From assembly GCA_943788755.1 (NCBI GenBank), contig CALSRM010000004.1, positions 124,001-188,000 on the forward strand: a DNA stretch of 64,000 nt, read 5' to 3'. Position 1 is the stretch's first letter, and each line of letters begins with the position of its first letter. The DNA is from an uncultured Flavobacteriales bacterium. Lineage in GTDB: Bacteria > Bacteroidota > Bacteroidia > Flavobacteriales_D > Parvicellaceae. The position numbers and the translations under genes were made by a program. Below are positions 677 through 27,285 of this stretch, piece after piece. The notes under the pieces are model-generated. The model saw only the letters and a list, made by a program, of their open reading frames with translations. It did not search any database and was not told the origin of the DNA.

Positions 677-1263
677 ACAGTTTCTAATTTATGTCCTTTG
701 CTTTCTTCAATACTTTTCCGCCAAGCAAGATATCCTGCAACAGCAATAAAAGTATATATAAAGTATAAAAAACTAGACATTGTCAATCCTTTATAAAAAT
801 ATAACGGAACTGTAATAATATCTCCTACTATCCAAAATATCCAGTTTTCAATTTTCCGTTTTGCCATCAACCACATTCCTGAAAAGAAGATGGCTGTTGT
901 TAAAGTATCCAAATATGCAGTCCAATTATCAAACTTATCAAAGGCAATATATATGATCCAAATAAAAATGAAAGCCATTATAAAAATAATGCTTGCTATT
1001 ATCTTTTCTTTACTATTCGTTCTGGAAATGTTTAAAAGTGCTTTTCCGTTTGATTTTCTCGTCCATAAATACCATCCGTAAATACTCATTGACACATAAA
1101 ATATATTAATGATAAAATCTCCAAACAACCCCCACTTAATTAATAAGTAAACGAATATAGCGGAGGCGACAATTCCACTTGGATAAACGAGTACATTATT
1201 TTTTTTAGCATACAAAACACTAACTACACCAAAAAACACCGCAGTTAACTCTAAGAAAAACAT
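673..1263 (-). CDS. PnuC-family vitamin transporter (PnuT-like thiamine uptake candidate)
   Basis: A 196-residue integral membrane protein with about seven hydrophobic segments. It carries the WxxYxWxxW-like pattern (YGWYLWTRK) and the late GDxxxxPLYFYKGL and YLAWRKS segments typical of PnuC-family facilitators, which use energy-independent uptake with metabolic trapping. It lies between a YkoF-like thiamine-binding protein and a P-loop kinase, overlapping the latter by 4 bp. In Bacteroidota a PnuC paralogue called PnuT is linked to TPP riboswitches and thought to import thiamine, and the neighbours here fit that. True nicotinamide riboside transport cannot be excluded. Confidence 0.82.
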   Translation of the reverse strand: MFFLELTAVFFGVVSVLYAKKNNVLVYPSGIVASAIFVYLLIKWGLFGDFIINIFYVSMSIYGWYLWTRKSNGKALLNISRTNSKEKIIASIIFIMAFIFIWIIYIAFDKFDNWTAYLDTLTTAIFFSGMWLMAKRKIENWIFWIVGDIITVPLYFYKGLTMSSFLYFIYTFIAVAGYLAWRKSIEESKGHKLETV

Positions 1264-1302
1264 CTAACTTGGTATATGCTAGAATATTGACTAAATAGTG
1301 TT

Positions 1303-1563
1303 TCAAAAAGTTGGTTCATAATCGCTTCGGTCGCTTTTTACAACTTTTAAATTGACAATAATATGTTCTTCATTTTCAAAAGAAGTTTTAATTTCCTTTG
1401 TCAAGAATGACATAACATTATCGTATTCACCGTAAACTTGAGTGCTCAGCGGATTCTCTACAATAGTAAATTCAGAACCTCTTAATCGCTTAATAAAGTC
1501 CTTTATTGGTGGCTCAAAATCAGTTTTTAACGGCATTAAAGTAAGCTCTACTGAGATCTTCAT
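1303..1563 (-). CDS. YkoF/MTH1187-like thiamine-binding protein
   Basis: A compact 86-residue soluble protein with the beta-alpha-beta pattern of the YkoF-related family: an N-terminal strand (KISVELTLMPL), a helix around PPIKDFIKRL, the TQVYGEYDNVM segment and a C-terminal strand. Relatives bind thiamine or its pyrimidine moiety, or act as small ligand carriers. It is the first gene of a leftward run with the PnuC-like transporter (39 bp gap) and the kinase. That grouping, next to a TPP riboswitch, is the main argument for thiamine. Assignment rests on motif recognition, not on a search. Confidence 0.65.
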   Translation of the reverse strand: MKISVELTLMPLKTDFEPPIKDFIKRLRGSEFTIVENPLSTQVYGEYDNVMSFLTKEIKTSFENEEHIIVNLKVVKSDRSDYEPTF

Positions 1564-1660
1564 AGTAGTTTGATTTGGATAACTGTGGCAAATTTAAAGA
1601 AAGAAATCTTTTTATTTTGAACATTTCACTACTTTCGAAGCATAATAAAAATTAGAAGTC

Positions 1661-2434
1661 ATGTCAGAAGCAATGAATCAAGGTAATGTAAAATTATCAA
1701 TTAATGAAAAGGGAATTGCAACAATAGAGTTTTCTCACCCATTGAGTAATTCGTTGCCAGGGAAAATATTAGCAAAATTAGCAGACACAATTACTGAAGC
1801 AGGAGCAAATGATTCCGTAAAAATTATTATTCTAAGATCAGCAGGTGAACGCGCTTTTTGCGGTGGAGCTAGTTTTGATGAATTAATTTCAATAAACAAT
1901 ATTGAAGTAGGAAAAACTTTCTTTTCTGGTTTTGCTAATGTAATTAATGCCGCTCGTAAATGTCCAAAATTGATTATTGGACGTGTTCAAGGAAAAGCTG
2001 TTGGTGGCGGAGTTGGAATGGCTAGTGCTGTTGATTTTTGTTTTGCTACTAAATTTGCATCGGTAAAATTAAGTGAATTGGCCGTAGGTATCGGACCTTT
2101 TGTTGTTGGTCCTGCAGTTGAGCGAAAGATTGGAACATCCGCAATGAGTATGATGGCAATTAATGCAACAGAATGGTACAGTGCAAATTGGGCAAGAGAA
2201 AAAGGACTATATGCAGATGTTTTTGACGATGTAGACAAAATGGATGAAGCAATCGAAACAATTGCAAACAAATTAGCGTCATCAAACCCAGAAGCTATGC
2301 GCATGCTTAAACAAGTTTTTTGGGAAGGAACGGAGCACTGGGACAAGCTTCTTTCAGATAGAGCTGCTATGAGCGGAAAATTAGTTCTTTCTGATTTTAC
2401 TCGAAATGCAATTCAAGCATTTAAGAAAAAATAA
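1661..2434 (+). CDS. enoyl-CoA hydratase/isomerase family protein
   Basis: A 257-residue crotonase-fold protein. The oxyanion-hole segments are visible: ERAFCGGASFDEL around residue 65-80 and GKAVGGGVGMASAVDFCFA around residue 110-128. Length is normal for the family. Members hydrate or isomerise acyl-CoA thioesters in fatty-acid, branched-chain or phenylacetate catabolism; the exact substrate is not fixed by the sequence. It is monocistronic and divergent from the thiamine-related run, with about 100 bp between. A second ATG lies four codons downstream, so the start may be slightly later. Confidence 0.85.
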   Translation: MSEAMNQGNVKLSINEKGIATIEFSHPLSNSLPGKILAKLADTITEAGANDSVKIIILRSAGERAFCGGASFDELISINNIEVGKTFFSGFANVINAARKCPKLIIGRVQGKAVGGGVGMASAVDFCFATKFASVKLSELAVGIGPFVVGPAVERKIGTSAMSMMAINATEWYSANWAREKGLYADVFDDVDKMDEAIETIANKLASSNPEAMRMLKQVFWEGTEHWDKLLSDRAAMSGKLVLSDFTRNAIQAFKKK

Positions 2435-2534
2435 CGCTAAGCAGCCTAATTTTGTCTATTACATCAAATATTTATTGTTTTTTAAAAAATTCAAATAACC
2501 AACTTTTATAAAGCCAATTTTGTTTCTTTGTGGA

Positions 2535-3597
2535 ATGTTAACAACGGAGAACAAAATAGAATTTGTGACGCCAATAATCTCAACTGAGGAGGAACTGAAA
2601 GCACTATTAGATTATTTTAAGTCTAAATCAACATTTATACTTGCAGACGAAAACACAGTTAAGCTTATTTCGGTTATTGCCGATATAAGCCCAATGATTA
2701 AGGATGCCGAAATCATAGAAATTAAAAGTGGGGAGAAAAATAAAAACCTAGAAGTTTGCCATAATATCTGGCAACATTTAAGCAACAACCAATGTAAATC
2801 AAAAAATGCACTTATAATTAATCTTAGGAGGAGGAGTTATTACTGACTTAGGAGGGTTTGTAGCCTCTACATACAAAAGAGGTATTGACTTTTTAAATAT
2901 TCCAACAACATTGCTTGCAATGACGGACGCTGCAATTGGAGGAAAGACAGGGGTGGATTTAGATAACTTTAAGAATCAAGTTGGGATGATCAGCTCGCCA
3001 ATTGGAATTTATTATAACTCGCATTTTCTTTCGACGCTGCCAAAAAATGAGTTAATTTCTGGCTTTGCAGAAGTCTTAAAACATGGTTTAGTAAAAAGCA
3101 AATCCTACTGGAGCAAATGCACAAACATTAGTTTTGATAAATTGAATTGGGAGGAAGTGATCTTAGGTTCTGTAGAAATTAAATGTGACGTTGTTAAAAG
3201 AGACCCAAAGGAGACAGGAGAAAGAAGATTGCTCAATTTCGGACACACCATTGGACATGCAATTGAAACCTTTATGATGAACCAATCAACGCCTATTCTG
3301 CATGGAGAAGCAGTTGCAATTGGAATTATTTGTGAAAGTTATATTAGCACAAAAATCGCCAAATTATCAAAGGCAGAATTAGAAGAAATTACGACCAATA
3401 TTTCGAAGCTATTTCCAAAAATAGAATTGAAAGAGTCTACTTTTTTAACCTTGATAGAACTGATGAGAAACGATAAGAAAAACATTTCAAATGAGATCAA
3501 TTTTTCATTGCTAGACAGTATCGGAAAAGGCATCTTTAACCAAAGTTGTCCTGAAGAAATGATTATAGAAGCTTTATCTTACTATACAGAACGTTAA
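2535..3597 (+). CDS. aroB: 3-dehydroquinate synthase, reading frame broken by +1 frameshift
   Basis: AroB makes 3-dehydroquinate from DAHP, the second shikimate step. The first part (to 2825) covers the N-terminal NAD-binding region. Codons ATT AAT CTT are followed by one surplus A (2826), which sends the frame into AGG AGG AGG and a stop at 2844-2846. Skipping that A restores the family motif GGGVITDLGGFVAS, then PTTLLAMTDAAIGGKTGVD and GHTIGHAIE, in frame to 3597. The repaired protein is about 353 residues, normal for the family. I start at the ATG at 2535 rather than an upstream TTG. aroA follows after 3 bp. No other damage is visible, so this is a recent mutation, a sequence error or a recoding site. 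Confidence 0.88.
2823..2835 (+). other. candidate +1 frameshift site in aroB
   Basis: The sequence is CTT-A-GGAGGAGGA. In frame zero the ribosome meets CTT then three AGG codons and soon a TGA. A one-base forward slip from CUU to UUA, both leucine codons, gives Leu-Gly-Gly-Gly as the family requires. The hexamer CUU AGG is the first six bases of the yeast Ty1 +1 site. The inserted base is not part of a homopolymer. Whether slippage happens is unproven. Confidence 0.45.
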
Positions 3598-21684: not shown

Positions 21685-23793
21685 ATGGCGAATAAGCAAC
21701 CAAAAAAACCTACAGATAGCAGAGGGAAAAAACCAGCTTTTAACTTTTACTGGATATATGCTATTATAGCCGTCATTCTTATTTCAATCAATCTATTCAA
21801 TTGGGACGGAGGAGTAAGAGAAATAACTCCTCAAAAATTTAAAACTGAAATGTTGGAAAAAGATCAAGTTGCAAAACTTGAGATTGTCAACAAGGAGATT
21901 GTTCGGATTTACATTAAGCAAGAATCATTAAGTAATGATACGCATAAAAAGCTTGATGAAAAAAGCTTGTTTGGAGGTAGTAATAGAGGGCCACATTACT
22001 TCTTTACTATCTTGAATGATGAAAAACTAAAGGATGATATTACCGTTTGGGAAGACCAATACGGTATAGAGGTCAAAGGGACTAAAGAAGAAAACTATGG
22101 AAGAGAACTCTTTAGTTGGCTGATCTTTATTGCAATCATGATTGCCGTTTGGGTGTTCATCATGAAACGCGTTGGTGGTGGTGCTGGAGGTGGCGGAAGT
22201 CAAATATTTAACATTGGAAAATCAAAAGCTCAGGTATTTGGAAAAGGAAAAAGCACCAATGTTAGTTTTAAGGATGTAGCAGGCTTATTAGAAGCTAAGG
22301 AAGAAATACAAGAAATTGTTGAGTTTCTTAAAAAACCAAAAAAATATACTGATTTAGGAGCAAAAATTCCAAAAGGAGCGCTACTAGTAGGCCCTCCTGG
22401 AACAGGTAAAACATTATTAGCTAAAGCTGTAGCTGGGGAAGCTGAAGTTCCATTCTTTTCTCTATCTGGATCCGATTTCGTTGAAATGTTTGTTGGAGTT
22501 GGAGCCTCTAGAGTTAGAGATTTATTCAAACAAGCAAAGGAGAAAGCGCCAAGTATAATCTTTATTGATGAAATTGATGCAATTGGAAGGGCCAGAGGTA
22601 AGAACCCTAACATGGGGTCGAACGATGAGAGAGAAAATACATTAAATCAGCTTTTAACTGAAATGGATGGTTTTGGAACGAACAATGGTGTAATTATTCT
22701 TGCTGCTACCAACAGAGCTGATGTTTTGGATAAAGCACTATTGAGAGCTGGACGTTTTGACAGACAAATTTATGTTGACATGCCGGATTTAAATGAGCGA
22801 AGAGCAATCTTCGATGTTCACTTGGAGCCACTGAAAAAAGTGACAGATCTTGACATTGACTTTTTGGCGAAACAAACACCAGGTTTTAGTGGAGCAGACA
22901 TTGCAAACATTTGTAACGAAGCAGCACTAATTGCTGCTAGATTTGATAAAAAACAAGTTGAAAAACAGGACTTTTTAGATGCAGTTGATCGGATTATTGG
23001 TGGATTAGAAAAGAAAAATAAAATTATTTCCAAAGAAGAAAAGAAAGCAATTGCAATACACGAAGCTGGACATGCTACTGTTAGCTGGATGGTTGAACAT
23101 GCTAATCCACTTGTGAAGGTAACTATAGTTCCAAGAGGGAAAAGTTTAGGTGCTGCCTGGTATTTACCAGAAGAGAGACAAATTACCACTACTGAGCAGC
23201 TACTGGATGAAATGTGTGCTGCTTTAGGAGGTAGAGCAGCGGAATTAGTAACTTTTGGAAAAATTTCTACAGGAGCATTAAGCGATTTAGAAAAAGTAAC
23301 CAAAACAGCTACAGCTATGGTTTCCATTTATGGCTTAAATGAAAAAGTTGGAAACGTATCCTATTACAACTCACAAGGTGATGGTTATGGATTTTCTAAG
23401 CCTTATAGCGATGATACTGCAAAGATCATTGATGATGAAGTCAAGAACTTAATCGAAGAGCAATATCAAAGAGCAATAAAACTCTTAGAAAAAAATAAGG
23501 ATAAACTGAATTTACTTGCAGAGAAGCTATTAGAAAAAGAAGTTATCTTTAAAGACGATTTAGAAGCTGTTTTTGGAAAAAGAGCCTGGAAAGAAAAAGA
23601 AATAACTGAAGAGGTACAGGTAGAAACTGAAGTTAAATCATCGAAAATAACCGAAGAAAACCTAGAAGAAAAAAGTGCAAACATTGAAAAGAAAAAACCT
23701 GCTTCTGTAGCTGATTTTGCTGAGGAAATAAAACCTAAGGGAAATGATTCTGATAATAAAAGTGAATTGAAAACAGAAGAAGAAACGAATTAA
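21685..23793 (+). CDS. ftsH: ATP-dependent zinc metalloprotease FtsH
   Basis: A 702-residue inner-membrane AAA+ protease. It has an N-terminal membrane segment (residues 20-38), a periplasmic domain, a second membrane segment (about 148-162) followed by a glycine-rich hinge, Walker A GPPGTGKT (about 236-243), Walker [12 protein letters not shown], the second region of homology ([18 protein letters not shown]) and the zinc site HEAGH (459-463). It degrades membrane proteins and short-lived regulators. The C-terminal 90 residues are a highly charged Glu/Lys tail without known motif. It lies 58 bp after rsfS and 6 bp before cdsA. Confidence 0.97.
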
Positions 23794-23799
23794 TCAAGT

Positions 23800-24639
23800 T
23801 TGAAAGAATTACTCACAAGAGCAACCACCGGAGCGGTATTTGTTGCGGTATTAATTGGAGCCATTGTCTGGAATAAATATTCCGTGGCATGGCTCTTTTT
23901 CGTTATCTCTATACTTGGCTTGCTTGAGTTTTTCAAGCTGATGGAAAAAGGTGGATTTAAGCCAAAAAAGAGTATCTCATGTATCGTTGGGGGCCTAATT
24001 TATGGAATCATAGTATATTTTAGTTTTGGATATGGCAACTTCTCTTACTTGCTCTTTATCTTTCCTTTATTGGTCTTACTGGTAGTCATTGAACTATTTC
24101 GAAAAAGTAAAACACCGGTATCGAACTTTGCCTTTTCTGTTATGGGGGTAATGTACGTGGTTATCCCATTTTCTATTCTAAATTTTTTCGCTTATAGCTC
24201 TCCATACGATGGTGTTTTGGAGATCGATGACAGATATGATTACGTTTTTCTATTGGGCTTTTTTGTAATACAATGGGCGAGTGATACCGGGGCTTATTTA
24301 GCTGGTTCTGCGATTGGAAAAACAAAATTATTCGAACGTATTTCACCCAACAAAACATGGGAAGGAGCTATTGGGGGAGCTGTTATTGCATTAGCCACAG
24401 GTTATTTATTTGCCTTCTTTACAGAGAGTTCTATTTTGCATTGGATGACTTGCTCATTTTTAATTGTAGTGTTTGGAACATTGGGAGACTTAACCGAATC
24501 CCAGATAAAAAGAAGTACTGGTGTAAAAGACTCAGGTAATATTCTTCCAGGACACGGAGGGATACTAGATCGATTTGACGGAGTATTATTTTCCGCACCA
24601 TTCGTATTAGCATATTTACATTTTGTAGATTTGATATAA
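23800..24639 (+). CDS. cdsA: phosphatidate cytidylyltransferase
   Basis: A 279-residue membrane enzyme that makes CDP-diacylglycerol from phosphatidate and CTP. It has about seven membrane segments and the C-terminal signature around ESQIKRSTGVKDSGNILPGHGGILDRFDG (Lys-Arg, Lys-Asp and two Asp). The only sensible start is the TTG at 23800, 6 bp after the ftsH stop, because the first ATG would cut into the first membrane helices. Together with psd downstream it forms the phosphatidylethanolamine branch of phospholipid synthesis. Confidence 0.93.
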   Translation: MKELLTRATTGAVFVAVLIGAIVWNKYSVAWLFFVISILGLLEFFKLMEKGGFKPKKSISCIVGGLIYGIIVYFSFGYGNFSYLLFIFPLLVLLVVIELFRKSKTPVSNFAFSVMGVMYVVIPFSILNFFAYSSPYDGVLEIDDRYDYVFLLGFFVIQWASDTGAYLAGSAIGKTKLFERISPNKTWEGAIGGAVIALATGYLFAFFTESSILHWMTCSFLIVVFGTLGDLTESQIKRSTGVKDSGNILPGHGGILDRFDGVLFSAPFVLAYLHFVDLI

Positions 24640-24666: not shown

Positions 24667-25323
24667 ATGAAAATACATAACGAAGGTTTTAAAATTATCA
24701 CACTATTTTTCTTGCTTCTGGTAGGAGTAGATTGTGTACTTATCTATTTCATTCCTATTGCCTGGATATGGTCAATATTGTTAGGCGCCTCTATTATTTT
24801 CTTTTTTCTTATAGTATCCTTTTTTCGAGTCCCAAAAAGAGGTGTAACAATTGATGGCAATAAAATACTTGCCCCCTCAGATGGAAAAGTAGTTGTTATA
24901 GAAGAGGTAATGGAAACTGAATATTTAAATGACAAATATACACAGATCAGCATATTTATGTCCCCTTTAAATGTTCACTGTCAGTGGTACCCAATAAATG
25001 GAATTGTAAAATATTTCAAATATCACCCCGGAAAATATTTAGTCGCGTGGCACCCAAAATCATCTACAGAAAATGAAAGAACCACTATAGTTGTTGAAGA
25101 CACCGAAGGCAGAAAAATTTTATTCAGGCAGATTGCAGGAGCAGTAGCTAGAAGGATTGTTTATTTTGGAAAAGAAGGGGAAGAAGCGCGTCAAGACAAA
25201 GAAGCAGGATTTATAAAGTTTGGTTCTAGAATAGACGTTTTCATCCCTTTAAAAAGTACAATAAATGTTAAAATAGGTGAAAATGTCGTTGGTAGTCAAA
25301 CTGTGTTGGCAAATTTTGATTAA
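24667..25323 (+). CDS. psd: phosphatidylserine decarboxylase, short (archaeal-type) form
   Basis: A 218-residue proenzyme that converts phosphatidylserine to phosphatidylethanolamine. After two membrane segments (residues 10-50) come APSDGKVVVIEE, IFMSPLNVHCQWYPINGIV and the self-cleavage site in EAGFIKFGSRIDVFIP, where the Gly-Ser bond yields the pyruvoyl group. The short length and this FGS site place it in the PSD-A type. It follows cdsA by 27 bp. Confidence 0.93.
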   Translation: MKIHNEGFKIITLFFLLLVGVDCVLIYFIPIAWIWSILLGASIIFFFLIVSFFRVPKRGVTIDGNKILAPSDGKVVVIEEVMETEYLNDKYTQISIFMSPLNVHCQWYPINGIVKYFKYHPGKYLVAWHPKSSTENERTTIVVEDTEGRKILFRQIAGAVARRIVYFGKEGEEARQDKEAGFIKFGSRIDVFIPLKSTINVKIGENVVGSQTVLANFD

Positions 25324-25330
25324 TTTAATG

Positions 25331-25338
25331 TATATTTG
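25331..25338 (+). promoter_or_regulatory. promoter -7 element for the Cys/Lys-rich gene
   Basis: TATATTTG fits TAnnTTTG, with a TTG about 22 bp upstream as a possible -33. It lies 8 bp past the psd stop and 36 bp before the ATG at 25374, so the small gene has its own promoter. Confidence 0.5.
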
Positions 25339-25373: not shown

Positions 25374-25610
25374 ATGAAAAAAGTAATTTTATCATTCGGT
25401 CTTGTTGCATTTATGGCGATTGGAACTACTGCTCAAACTATTGCTACTACTGAAGTTGCAAAGAAAGAAACGAAAAAAGCTTGTGCTAAAAAAGCTTGTT
25501 GCAAAAAGAAGGCAGCTACTAATGGAACTGCCGCTACTACTACAACAAAATGTTGCAAGAAGAAAGGTGTAAAGGCTTGCGCCAAAAAGACTGAAACTAG
25601 CTCTAAATAA
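25374..25610 (+). CDS. small exported Cys/Lys-rich protein
   Basis: A 78-residue protein with a signal peptide (MKKVILSFGLVAFMAIGTTAQ, cleavage after about residue 20). The mature part holds six cysteines arranged as AC-AKKACC-KKK and KCC-KKKGVKAC, separated by a Thr/Ala linker, and many lysines. No family is recognised. Paired cysteines in an exported basic peptide suggest metal binding or disulfide cross-linking. It has its own promoter element and an intrinsic terminator, and is followed by another cysteine-rich exported protein with the opposite charge. Confidence 0.65.
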   Translation: MKKVILSFGLVAFMAIGTTAQTIATTEVAKKETKKACAKKACCKKKAATNGTAATTTTKCCKKKGVKACAKKTETSSK

Positions 25611-25623
25611 GACAACCAATATC

Positions 25624-25652
25624 AAAAGCCAAGCTAAAACTTGGCTTTTTTT
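25624..25652 (+). terminator. intrinsic terminator
   Basis: AAAAGCCAAG and CTTGGCTTTTTTT form a stem of about 8 bp around a short loop, followed by seven T. It lies 14 bp after the stop of the Cys/Lys-rich gene, so the downstream lipoprotein gene needs its own promoter or read-through. Confidence 0.85.
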
Positions 25653-25684
25653 AATTATAAAAACAACTATTAGACTAAACAAAA

Positions 25685-26056
25685 ATGAAAAAATTATTAT
25701 TCGGATTCGGAATACTAGTAATGCTGTTTGCCACTGCAACAATTTCTTCTTGTGGAGATGCTGAATCTAACGATGAAAAAACAGAAATGAAAGAAGGTGA
25801 AGACGGAGAAAAGTGCTGTTCTAAAGACAAAGAATGTTCTAAAGAATGTAAAGAAACATGTAAAAAAAACTGTACAGCTGATTGCACTGAAGAAGAATGT
25901 TCTGACGAATGCAAAGCTGCTTGTAAAGCTGAAGGTAAAGCTTGTAATCAGGAAGCGGAACATAAATGTTCGGACATGAAATGTGAAGAAGGAAAATGTG
26001 GGCACGGGAGTGAAGAAGGTGAAACAGAAGAAGAAGGAACCGAAGAAGTTGAATAA
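25685..26056 (+). CDS. cysteine-ladder acidic lipoprotein
   Basis: A 123-residue lipoprotein. The signal ends in a lipobox (TISSCGD, Cys at about 23). The mature chain has 14 further cysteines, most spaced four apart: CC-SKDKEC-SKEC-KETC-KKNC-TADC-TEEEC-SDEC-KAAC, then three Cys in KC/GKC contexts and a CGHG. Such i, i+4 spacing would put the cysteines on one face of a helix. The C-terminus is a run of Glu. No family is recognised; metal capture in the periplasm or at the surface is the natural guess. It has 29 bp between the upstream terminator and its ATG. Confidence 0.7.
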   Translation: MKKLLFGFGILVMLFATATISSCGDAESNDEKTEMKEGEDGEKCCSKDKECSKECKETCKKNCTADCTEEECSDECKAACKAEGKACNQEAEHKCSDMKCEEGKCGHGSEEGETEEEGTEEVE

Positions 26057-26075: not shown

Positions 26076-26106
26076 AAAAAAGCTCGGTAAATACCGAGCT
26101 TTTTTT
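26076..26106. terminator. bidirectional intrinsic terminator
   Basis: AGCTCGGTA (26081-26089) pairs with TACCGAGCT (26092-26100), with A5-6 before and T6-7 after, so it can end transcription in both directions. It lies between the convergent lipoprotein and hydroxyacyl-CoA dehydrogenase genes. Confidence 0.88.
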
Positions 26107-26127: not shown

Positions 26128-27285
26128 TCAATAAAATGTGTTGCCAGATTTTGCCATTCTTCGAAGCATTGGACTACACCTATAACGATCTTCTAAATAT
26201 TCATTATACAAATCATCCAAGCCATCTACACATTCCTGAATTCCTATTTCATCTGCCCAAGCTAATAACCCTTTAGGATAATTCACTCCTTTTGTCATTG
26301 CTAAATCTATATCTTCTTTGGAAGCTACATTCAGGAACAAAGCATCAGCTGCCTCGTTAATCAACATCACTAGTACTCTCCATACAATTTGATCTCCTAA
26401 ATCTTTATTTTCATTTGCGATAGGCATTTCTCCTCCTTCTGCATAATCATAGTATCCCCTACCCGATTTACGACCGTACCATCCAGCCTCTGAATGTCTT
26501 TTTTGCGTAAATGAAGGTCTGTATCGTTGATCATAATAAAACGCCGCAAATACAGTCTCAGTAACCGTATAGTTTATATCATTCCCTATAAAATCCATTA
26601 GCGTAAATGGGCCCATTCTAAAACCAGCAATTTCTTTCATTGCCCAATCAATAGTAGCAAAATCTGCAATTCCTTCCTCATAAATTCGCAATGCCTCACC
26701 GTAAAATGGACGTGCTACTCTATTCACAATAAATCCTGGAGTGTCTTTTGCTAAAACAGTTATTTTATTCCAACTGTCTACCAAACCTCTAGTTTCTTTG
26801 GTTATTGCATCTGAAGTTTGAATTGCAGGAATAATTTCTACCAATGGCATCAAAGGAGCAGGATTAAAAAAGTGAAGACCTATTACTCTATTTGGATTTT
26901 TACAAGCTGCTGCAATTGCAGCAACAGATAGTGATGAAGTATTAGTGGATAGAATACAATCATCTCCACAAATCTCTTCCAACTGACTAAACACTGATTT
27001 CTTTATCTCTAAGTTCTCGACAATTGCTTCAATAACAATCCTAGACCCTTGCATTTGGTTTAAGCTGGATGCAGGAGTAATTCTATCAAATATTTCAATA
27101 GAAGTAGCCGCATCTATTCTTCCTTTTTCAACCAAACGAGCTAAAATCTTTTGCAATTTTTTCATTGCTTTCTCCAACGCATCTTGATTGGTATCGAATA
27201 GCACAACTTCATGTCCGGCAGCAGCAGCAACTTGCGCAATCCCACTTCCCATCGATCCTGATCCTATAACTCCAACTTTTATCAT
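26128..27285 (-). CDS. 3-hydroxyacyl-CoA dehydrogenase (3-hydroxybutyryl-CoA type)
   Basis: A 385-residue NAD-dependent enzyme oxidising 3-hydroxyacyl-CoA. It has the N-terminal Rossmann loop VGVIGSGSMGSGIAQ (residues 4-18) with the acidic residue of LFDTN, the catalytic region STNTSSLS, NRVIGLHFFNPAPLMPLVEI (His of the catalytic pair) and DTPGFIVNRVARPFYGEA, then two C-terminal helical domains (one around AGFRMGPFTLMDFIG, one around GVNYPKGLLAWAD). Size suits a PaaH-like enzyme of phenylacetate, fatty-acid or butanoate metabolism. It is monocistronic here. Confidence 0.9.
   Translation of the reverse strand: MIKVGVIGSGSMGSGIAQVAAAAGHEVVLFDTNQDALEKAMKKLQKILARLVEKGRIDAATSIEIFDRITPASSLNQMQGSRIVIEAIVENLEIKKSVFSQLEEICGDDCILSTNTSSLSVAAIAAACKNPNRVIGLHFFNPAPLMPLVEIIPAIQTSDAITKETRGLVDSWNKITVLAKDTPGFIVNRVARPFYGEALRIYEEGIADFATIDWAMKEIAGFRMGPFTLMDFIGNDINYTVTETVFAAFYYDQRYRPSFTQKRHSEAGWYGRKSGRGYYDYAEGGEMPIANENKDLGDQIVWRVLVMLINEAADALFLNVASKEDIDLAMTKGVNYPKGLLAWADEIGIQECVDGLDDLYNEYLEDRYRCSPMLRRMAKSGNTFY

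Follow-up and report, generated by a model that had tools for sequence, protein, structure and literature searches.

The window analysed here is a stretch of 64,000 nucleotides from a genome of 3.17 Mb. According to the ORF list, two short cysteine-rich genes, here called P1 and P2, close a plus-strand series ftsH, cdsA, psd, P1, P2 and are followed by a convergent gene on the minus strand. The locus comprises the following features:

21685-23793, plus strand: ftsH, ORF upstream of cdsA
23800-24639, plus strand: cdsA, ORF upstream of psd
24667-25323, plus strand: psd, ORF directly upstream of P1 and anchor gene of the locus
25374-25610, plus strand: P1, 78-residue basic, predicted exported protein with CC pairs, assigned below to the psd+1 Lys/Cys family
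25685-26056, plus strand: P2, ORF of a 123-residue acidic cysteine-rich predicted lipoprotein
25751-25753, plus strand: lipobox cysteine of P2 (residue 23; lipobox ..ISSC)
26128-27285, minus strand: 3-hydroxyacyl-CoA dehydrogenase-like ORF, convergent with P2

The names psd (which we take to be phosphatidylserine decarboxylase), cdsA and ftsH were assigned from the translations, as was the presumed dehydrogenase-like identity of the convergent gene.

P1 starts 50 bases downstream of the psd stop codon. Its signal peptide is MKKVILSFGLVAFMAIGTTA-Q, with the cleavage site placed by eye, and its six cysteines form two CC pairs and two singles. The mature part is strongly basic (17 Lys/Arg, 3 Asp/Glu, pI 9.9). 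P2 contains 15 cysteines, i.e. the lipid-bearing one plus 14 in the rest of the chain; its mature part is acidic (15 Lys/Arg, 34 Asp/Glu, pI 4.4) and very hydrophilic (GRAVY -1.5). Residues 1-14 of P2 match LPAM_1 weakly, below the LPAM_1 cut-off. Cysteine makes up 6 of 78 residues in P1 and 15 of 123 in P2; the 48 mechanical ORFs of at least 150 residues in the window have a median cysteine content of 1% and reach 4.7% at most. This agrees with the sequence-only reading, which had described P1 as a basic 78-residue exported peptide with paired cysteines and P2 as a 123-residue acidic lipoprotein with 14 mature cysteines. The mature P2 begins C-G-D-A-E-S-N-D-E. The minimal surface-lipoprotein signal (LES) of Bacteroidetes, as given in PMC5080379, is K-(D/E)2 or Q-A-(D/E)2; we applied it as a polar or Lys residue and then at least two Asp/Glu directly after the +1 cysteine. 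The acidic start of P2 resembles this export signal as given there, without matching either minimal form.

Compared with the congener G001, dN/dS is 0.27 for P1 and 0.22 for P2 (psd: 0.06), which makes it very likely that both are genuine genes. Of the four genus members, the window genome and G001 have an intact P1; in G002 and G003 the same one-base insertion leads to an early stop, with P2 intact there. About 9% of the aligned positions, gaps counted, differ between G002 and G003 as far as mid-P1 and about 0.4% beyond it. In the alignment of these two loci (L002, L003) the change in divergence falls in the interval 1261-1320, where the P1 frameshift is also located; we read this as a recombination tract or cross-assembly. 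Since the two genomes are divergent before the frameshift and near-identical after it, we count the frameshift once, as an event in a tract that is shared or recombined, or as a shared assembly artefact.

Three further elements concern transcription of the two genes:

25331-25338, plus strand: TATATTTG, which fits the -7 promoter box TAnnTTTG of Bacteroidetes and lies 43 bases ahead of the start codon of P1
25624-25653, plus strand: P1 intrinsic terminator, hairpin 25624-25649 plus T tail, -12.4 kcal/mol, z -4.5
26076-26105, plus strand: P2 terminator, hairpin, -17.1 kcal/mol, z -5.7, between P2 and the convergent gene

The -7 consensus follows PMC7366714. The TATATTTG box is present in all four genomes of the genus. 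A TAnnTTTG box lies within 110 bases upstream of 21 (P1 included) out of 34 genes directly following psd (psd+1 genes), against 3.2 expected from mononucleotide shuffles; these genes are related, partly duplicate and hence non-independent. P1 is probably transcribed from its own promoter after psd. Its terminator lies about 30 bases upstream of the P2 start codon, and hairpin arms and loop are identical in the four genomes. The P2 terminator was found by folding energy and is absent from the pattern-scan list; by eye, the arm changes in G001 retain most of the pairing. A strong terminator had been proposed behind each gene, and both are there as hairpins with T runs. As no TAnnTTTG box was seen by eye in the sequence between the P1 terminator and P2, the latter may depend on read-through.

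A psd profile built from alignment A1 matched in 28 of the 39 genomes of the window's own family (f1), at 29 loci; 28 of these are scorable, and the remaining one breaks off 92 bases past psd. At 26 of the 28 loci, psd is directly followed by a small exported ORF, broken and Cys-less ones counted and one locus (L147) added by hand that the 500-base limit of the script had excluded; at L135 and L139 there is none. Of the 26 ORFs, two are frameshifted and four are Cys-less in the mature part (L131, L132, L143, L144), and 20 of the 28 loci carry an intact ORF with at least two mature cysteines. Family f8 was sampled as the best 30 loci by psd score out of 52 genomes with a match; 29 of these loci are scorable, and 24 of the 29 have a psd+1 ORF, all passing the Lys/Cys filter, as do both loci of family f4. 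The same filter passes none of 26 scorable loci in f9 (four further ones were unscorable) and none of eight in f3; any small signal-like ORF was found at 3/26 and 1/8 loci, respectively, and by eye these are chance-looking. The filters for f1, for f8 and f4, and for f9 and f3 differ slightly in their length and distance limits. For f1, f8 and f4 together, psd is followed by a small exported ORF at 52 of 59 scorable loci, broken and Cys-less ones included. Among 80 named loci seven have a psd+1 gene; two of these are f1 genomes again and one protein is identical to that of an f8 locus. In a control of 106 loci, with three loci left out in which the psd motif was unrecognised, a filter on composition and signal gave 23 matches in the 500 bases that follow psd, among them one P2 and some from duplicate genomes, versus 21 at other places, counted over both strands of 739 kb. 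By eye, the latter look like shadow frames. A second psd of nearly equal score is located at a contig end in G001 (L151, contig C20), which suggests a mixed bin.

The psd+1 genes have a common, order-specific grammar rather than an alignment. In 28 sequences hand-picked for cysteine (19 of the 24 from f8, five near-duplicates being excluded, nine of the 20 Cys-bearing ones from f1, none from f4) CC occurs 42 times versus 12.2 expected from shuffles, CC-x-K 30 versus 4.1 and [SA]CC 31 versus 2.3 times; C-x2-C (5 versus 12.7) and C-x3-C (6 versus 12.4) are depleted. A profile of the 19 mature f8 sequences scores the P1 of the window at 10.9 bits versus at most 6.0 in 200 shuffles, which is weak in absolute terms. 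Six of nine f1 members beat all 200 shuffles of themselves; L137, L130 and L147 are matched by 1, 4 and 2 shuffles, respectively. P2 fails against this profile, which gives no support for P1 and P2 as tandem paralogues. On these features we assign P1 to a psd+1 Lys/Cys family that is defined here and has no existing name: it has the position, the export signal, the Lys content, the CC pairs and a better-than-shuffle score, but not the long Lys run seen in many other members. The dN/dS of mature psd+1 parts ranges from 0 to 0.34 where estimable in pairs of the genera g1, g6 and g9, i.e. purifying selection is strong there. In g3, where most members still have a CC pair, it reaches 0.24-0.91 and in g7 0.83, so that the function looks relaxed in these two genera.

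In all four genomes of genus g2 (G004, G012, G019, G025), one of which is a single contig of 99% completeness, psd was not found. A P2-type gene follows cdsA directly in G004, G019 and G012, and in G010, where psd was likewise not found, a Lys/Cys-type gene does so (L156). Because cysteine-rich exported genes stand directly after cdsA in some genomes in which psd was not found, P1 and P2 seem to be alternative occupants of one site, present together only in this genus. No P1 lies alongside P2 at the g2 locus (G012 has a P1-like gene elsewhere, L020), and in the other genera examined P1-type genes occur without an adjoining P2. The opposite charges of the two proteins had been taken to suggest an interaction; this idea was dropped, as the genes occur apart at the locus and two of the four genus genomes have a frameshifted P1 next to an intact P2.

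A P2 profile matched 11 of the 39 family genomes at E ≤0.01: all four of the own genus, all four of g2 (the G025 match being weak, E 7e-8, with the gene at another site), and weakly G010, G030 (L157) and G028, where those of G010 and G028 are psd+1-type Lys/Cys ORFs. For the alignment we used seven P2 sequences, i.e. those of the window, G001, G002, G003, G004, G019 and G012. Two segments of P2 were considered:

25835-25924, plus strand: C-x3-C ladder (Cys 51-80), lineage-specific in the alignment of seven P2 sequences
25964-26008, plus strand: conserved C-terminal core KCSDMKCEEGKCGHG (residues 94-108) with a single EGKCG, from the same alignment

The 14 cysteines are found at positions 44, 45, 51, 55, 59, 63, 67, 72, 76, 80, 87, 95, 100 and 105. 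They form six i,i+4 pairs, where shuffling the mature chain would give 1.75 (p 0.002) and shuffling only the cysteine-rich core 2.66 (p 0.02); there are no i+2 or i+3 pairs. The C-x3 excess is real but modest. The ladder is kept in G002 and G003 and mostly lost in G001, and the g2 sequences (G004, G019, G012) have different cysteine spacings. Five cysteines (C45, C51, C59, C72, C80) are aligned in all seven sequences with gaps between these columns, so that the spacing varies among the seven; the lipoprotein signal, the cysteine density and the acidity are kept throughout. AlphaFold predicts P2 (single sequence) at a mean pLDDT of 51 with weak short helices at 53-62 and 74-82, and P1 (eight sequences) at 50. 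The sequence-only reading had seen cysteines mainly every four residues, lined up on a helix face, and had named a lack of conserved spacing in orthologues as refuting. The four-residue interval applies to 6 of 13 gaps, the spacing is mostly lost in G001 and g2, which for the ladder is the refuting outcome, and the model shows two weak helices and no confident helix face. With spacing not conserved and model confidence low, the C-x3 helix ladder was rejected as a functional unit. Such pLDDT values would suit proteins that fold once metal is bound and not before; they may also be due to shallow alignments alone.

Neither P1 nor P2 has an accepted match in Pfam, NCBIfam or the PDB sequences; DUF326 we take to be the family of the Csp copper storage proteins. 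Weak matches to a ZIP transporter, mycoplasma lipoprotein signal peptides and a trypanosome surface glycoprotein were judged compositional. Bacterial metallothioneins such as SmtA/BmtA and MymT are likewise small and rich in cysteine. P1 and P2 differ from them in the predicted export and, for P1, in the CC-x-K pattern, and no metallothionein profile in Pfam or NCBIfam matches either protein.

The conserved part of P2 is the C-terminal core. K94, C95, D97, K99, C100, E102, G103, K104, C105, G106 and G108 are invariant in all seven sequences, giving the pattern K-C-x-D-x-K-C-x-E-G-K-C-G-x-G, or C[SA]D(M)KC[GE]EGKCG. EGKCG is described as the hallmark of HvfA/oxazolin precursors in PMC12452194 and PMC12668002. 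According to the latter, gonophorin, a modified EGKCG peptide, bound one or two copper ions when expressed with CuSO4, and modification lowers the mass by 8 Da for two EGKCG repeats, or about 4 Da for each modified cysteine. In genome searches with NF050137 ("HvfA family"), the P2 proteins of the three g2 genomes searched (G004, G012, G019) marginally pass the curated cut-off of 19.5 bits, with 19.9, 21.7 and 22.7 bits; G001 stays under it, and nothing was found in the window's genome, G002 and G003. The two g2 P2 proteins that were scanned singly stay below 19.5 (G004 17.4, G019 7.8 bits). PF05114 (MNIO) was not found in any of 25 family genomes, the own one included; 3 of 40 searched genomes match (G039, G046, G050), all outside the family, as do two control genomes. 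For PF09836 (DUF2063, the partner protein) the result is 0/25 in the family and 2/40 overall (G039 and G050, both outside it). P2 thus resembles the HvfA/oxazolin/Buf_EGKCG proteins (NF050137, NF050188), which are copper-binding RiPP precursors with repeated EGKCG motifs and a thiooxazole or oxazolone-thioamide on cysteine, in being a predicted exported, cysteine-rich, low-complexity protein with an EGKCG motif and in having g2 orthologues that pass NF050137 in the genome search. It differs from them in the single EGKCG, the acidic lipoprotein character, the additional cysteine ladder and a genome without an MNIO or DUF2063 match. Because the two singly scanned proteins remain under the cut-off and MNIO and DUF2063 lack a match, we file P2 as a putative EGKCG-like orphan outside this membership. 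In a genome of family f2 from the same bacterial order (G050, L114, positions 1117-3051) we noticed an hvfABC-like cluster of EGKCG precursor, MNIO and DUF2063, in which the EGKCG gene is directly upstream of the MNIO gene; a second NF050137 match to the precursor was reported with a stop in its stretch. Family f4 has multi-repeat EGKCG proteins above the HvfA cut-off without an MNIO or DUF2063 match (L109 in G052, L110 in G041).

Both proteins are probably loose unfolded sponges for metals or reactive chemicals. Our tentative first choice is that they would act as independent, mostly unfolded envelope buffers of soft metals, most likely Cu(I). Clustered thiolates of both proteins would bind soft metals in the envelope: P1 would do so as a soluble cationic protein with vicinal CC pairs, and P2 as a lipid-anchored acidic protein whose conserved part, the EGKCG-type core, would be used without MNIO modification. 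We infer the location, the thiol state, metal binding and copper as the metal from the sequences. Copper is preferred on account of the EGKCG core of P2; for P1 it is a guess. Metal or thiol capture, close to what was suggested earlier, is still the best reading of the pair; the EGKCG core and the positional family of P1 had been overlooked. In favour of the buffer we count the NF050137 matches of g2, the invariant core of P2, the copper found on gonophorin, the grammar and profile score of the P1 family, the purifying selection in g1, g6 and g9 and the low pLDDT of both models. Against it we count that inspection by eye of the ORFs between 20 and 32 kb of the window showed no metal gene, that the two singly scanned g2 proteins miss the HvfA cut-off, that the P2 of the window has one EGKCG and no NF050137 match, that P1 is frameshifted in G002 and G003, that psd+1 proteins are Cys-less at 4 of 28 f1 loci and that selection looks relaxed in g3 and g7. 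In an oxidising envelope, free thiols may simply end up as disulfides.

A rather unlikely alternative is a redox or sacrificial role, in which exported thiols would scavenge oxidants or electrophiles or cross-link in the envelope, and the cationic run of P1 would bind anionic lipid or LPS close to where the protein acts. It draws on the vicinal CC pairs and Lys runs that recur in the psd+1 family and on the lipid-synthesis neighbours cdsA and psd. However, a promoter box and terminator of its own speak against linking P1 to psd, by eye the ORF list shows no thioredoxin-like or Dsb gene adjoining P1 and P2, and the EGKCG core of P2 points to metal.

That these are fast-evolving low-complexity genes of little function, retained through conserved gene order alone, appears improbable to us. 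Hypervariable mature regions, the loss of cysteines at 4/28 loci, the frameshift in 2/4 genus genomes and the high dN/dS values in g3 and g7 would be expected in that case, but they stand against the low values in g1, g6 and g9, an order-specific motif grammar common to f8 and f1 and the occupancy of 52 out of 59 loci.

Still more improbable is that P1 and P2 are RiPP precursors on whose cysteines an unrecognised enzyme acts, yielding bufferin- or oxazolin-like copper chelators. The EGKCG core and the HvfA-profile matches in the sister genus would suit such a role, and Table 3 of PMC12452194 lists 67 of 2583 complete genomes with Buf_EGKCG precursors and without an MNIO gene, i.e. orphan cases are known but uncommon. 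Modification by an MNIO was rejected on the missing PF05114 and PF09836 matches in the 25 family genomes; both profiles do match elsewhere, and the cluster of G050 has its MNIO beside the EGKCG gene.

A Csp-like copper storage protein, with the C-x3 ladder turned inward in a four-helix bundle, is the least probable reading of P2: CXXXC motifs on one helix of Csp3 bind Cu(I) (PMC5171941), and P2 shares such C-x3-C pairs in excess over shuffles as well as two weak helices, but it has no Pfam family or PDB sequence match, no confident helix bundle and no conserved ladder spacing even within the genus, at a pLDDT of 51 and in a very hydrophilic chain.

Returning to the soft-metal buffer, a wider version of it can be formulated, which we consider doubtful. 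The psd+1 proteins would then be a widespread class of exported, unfolded cationic dithiol proteins (CC-x-K, own TAnnTTTG promoter) acting as MNIO-independent envelope copper buffer of several Bacteroidota families, with an EGKCG lipoprotein doing the same job at the cdsA-psd locus in this and the sister genus, so that one site would have been refilled by unrelated cysteine-rich metal sponges. Exported cysteine-rich metal buffers as such are already known; an MNIO-less EGKCG-like lipoprotein and the psd+1 family would be variants of them for which we found no description in the open-access literature searched, which also yielded no account of a cysteine-rich gene near psd or of cysteine-rich proteins of Flavobacteria; by title, the papers it brought up deal with heavy metals and the rhizosphere. 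If true, several Bacteroidota families own an envelope metal buffer, and a class of tiny proteins is explained whose mature parts align too poorly for sequence families to catch them. EGKCG-type proteins would persist in the absence of the enzyme held to render them functional, a point of relevance to the question of whether metal binding requires the modification.

Cysteine-rich proteins were also noticed at other places. In a genome of g7 whose psd+1 protein is Cys-less (G016, L132), a 201-residue protein at positions 1417-2022 of L016 contains CCK repeats and a His/Asp-rich tail, HDHEDGHEH, and is plausibly metal-binding. Two loci of family f9 (L021 in G056, L025 in G091) encode longer exported proteins in which CC-K motifs recur; these lie away from psd and adjoin a gene that is presumably FAD oxidoreductase-like.
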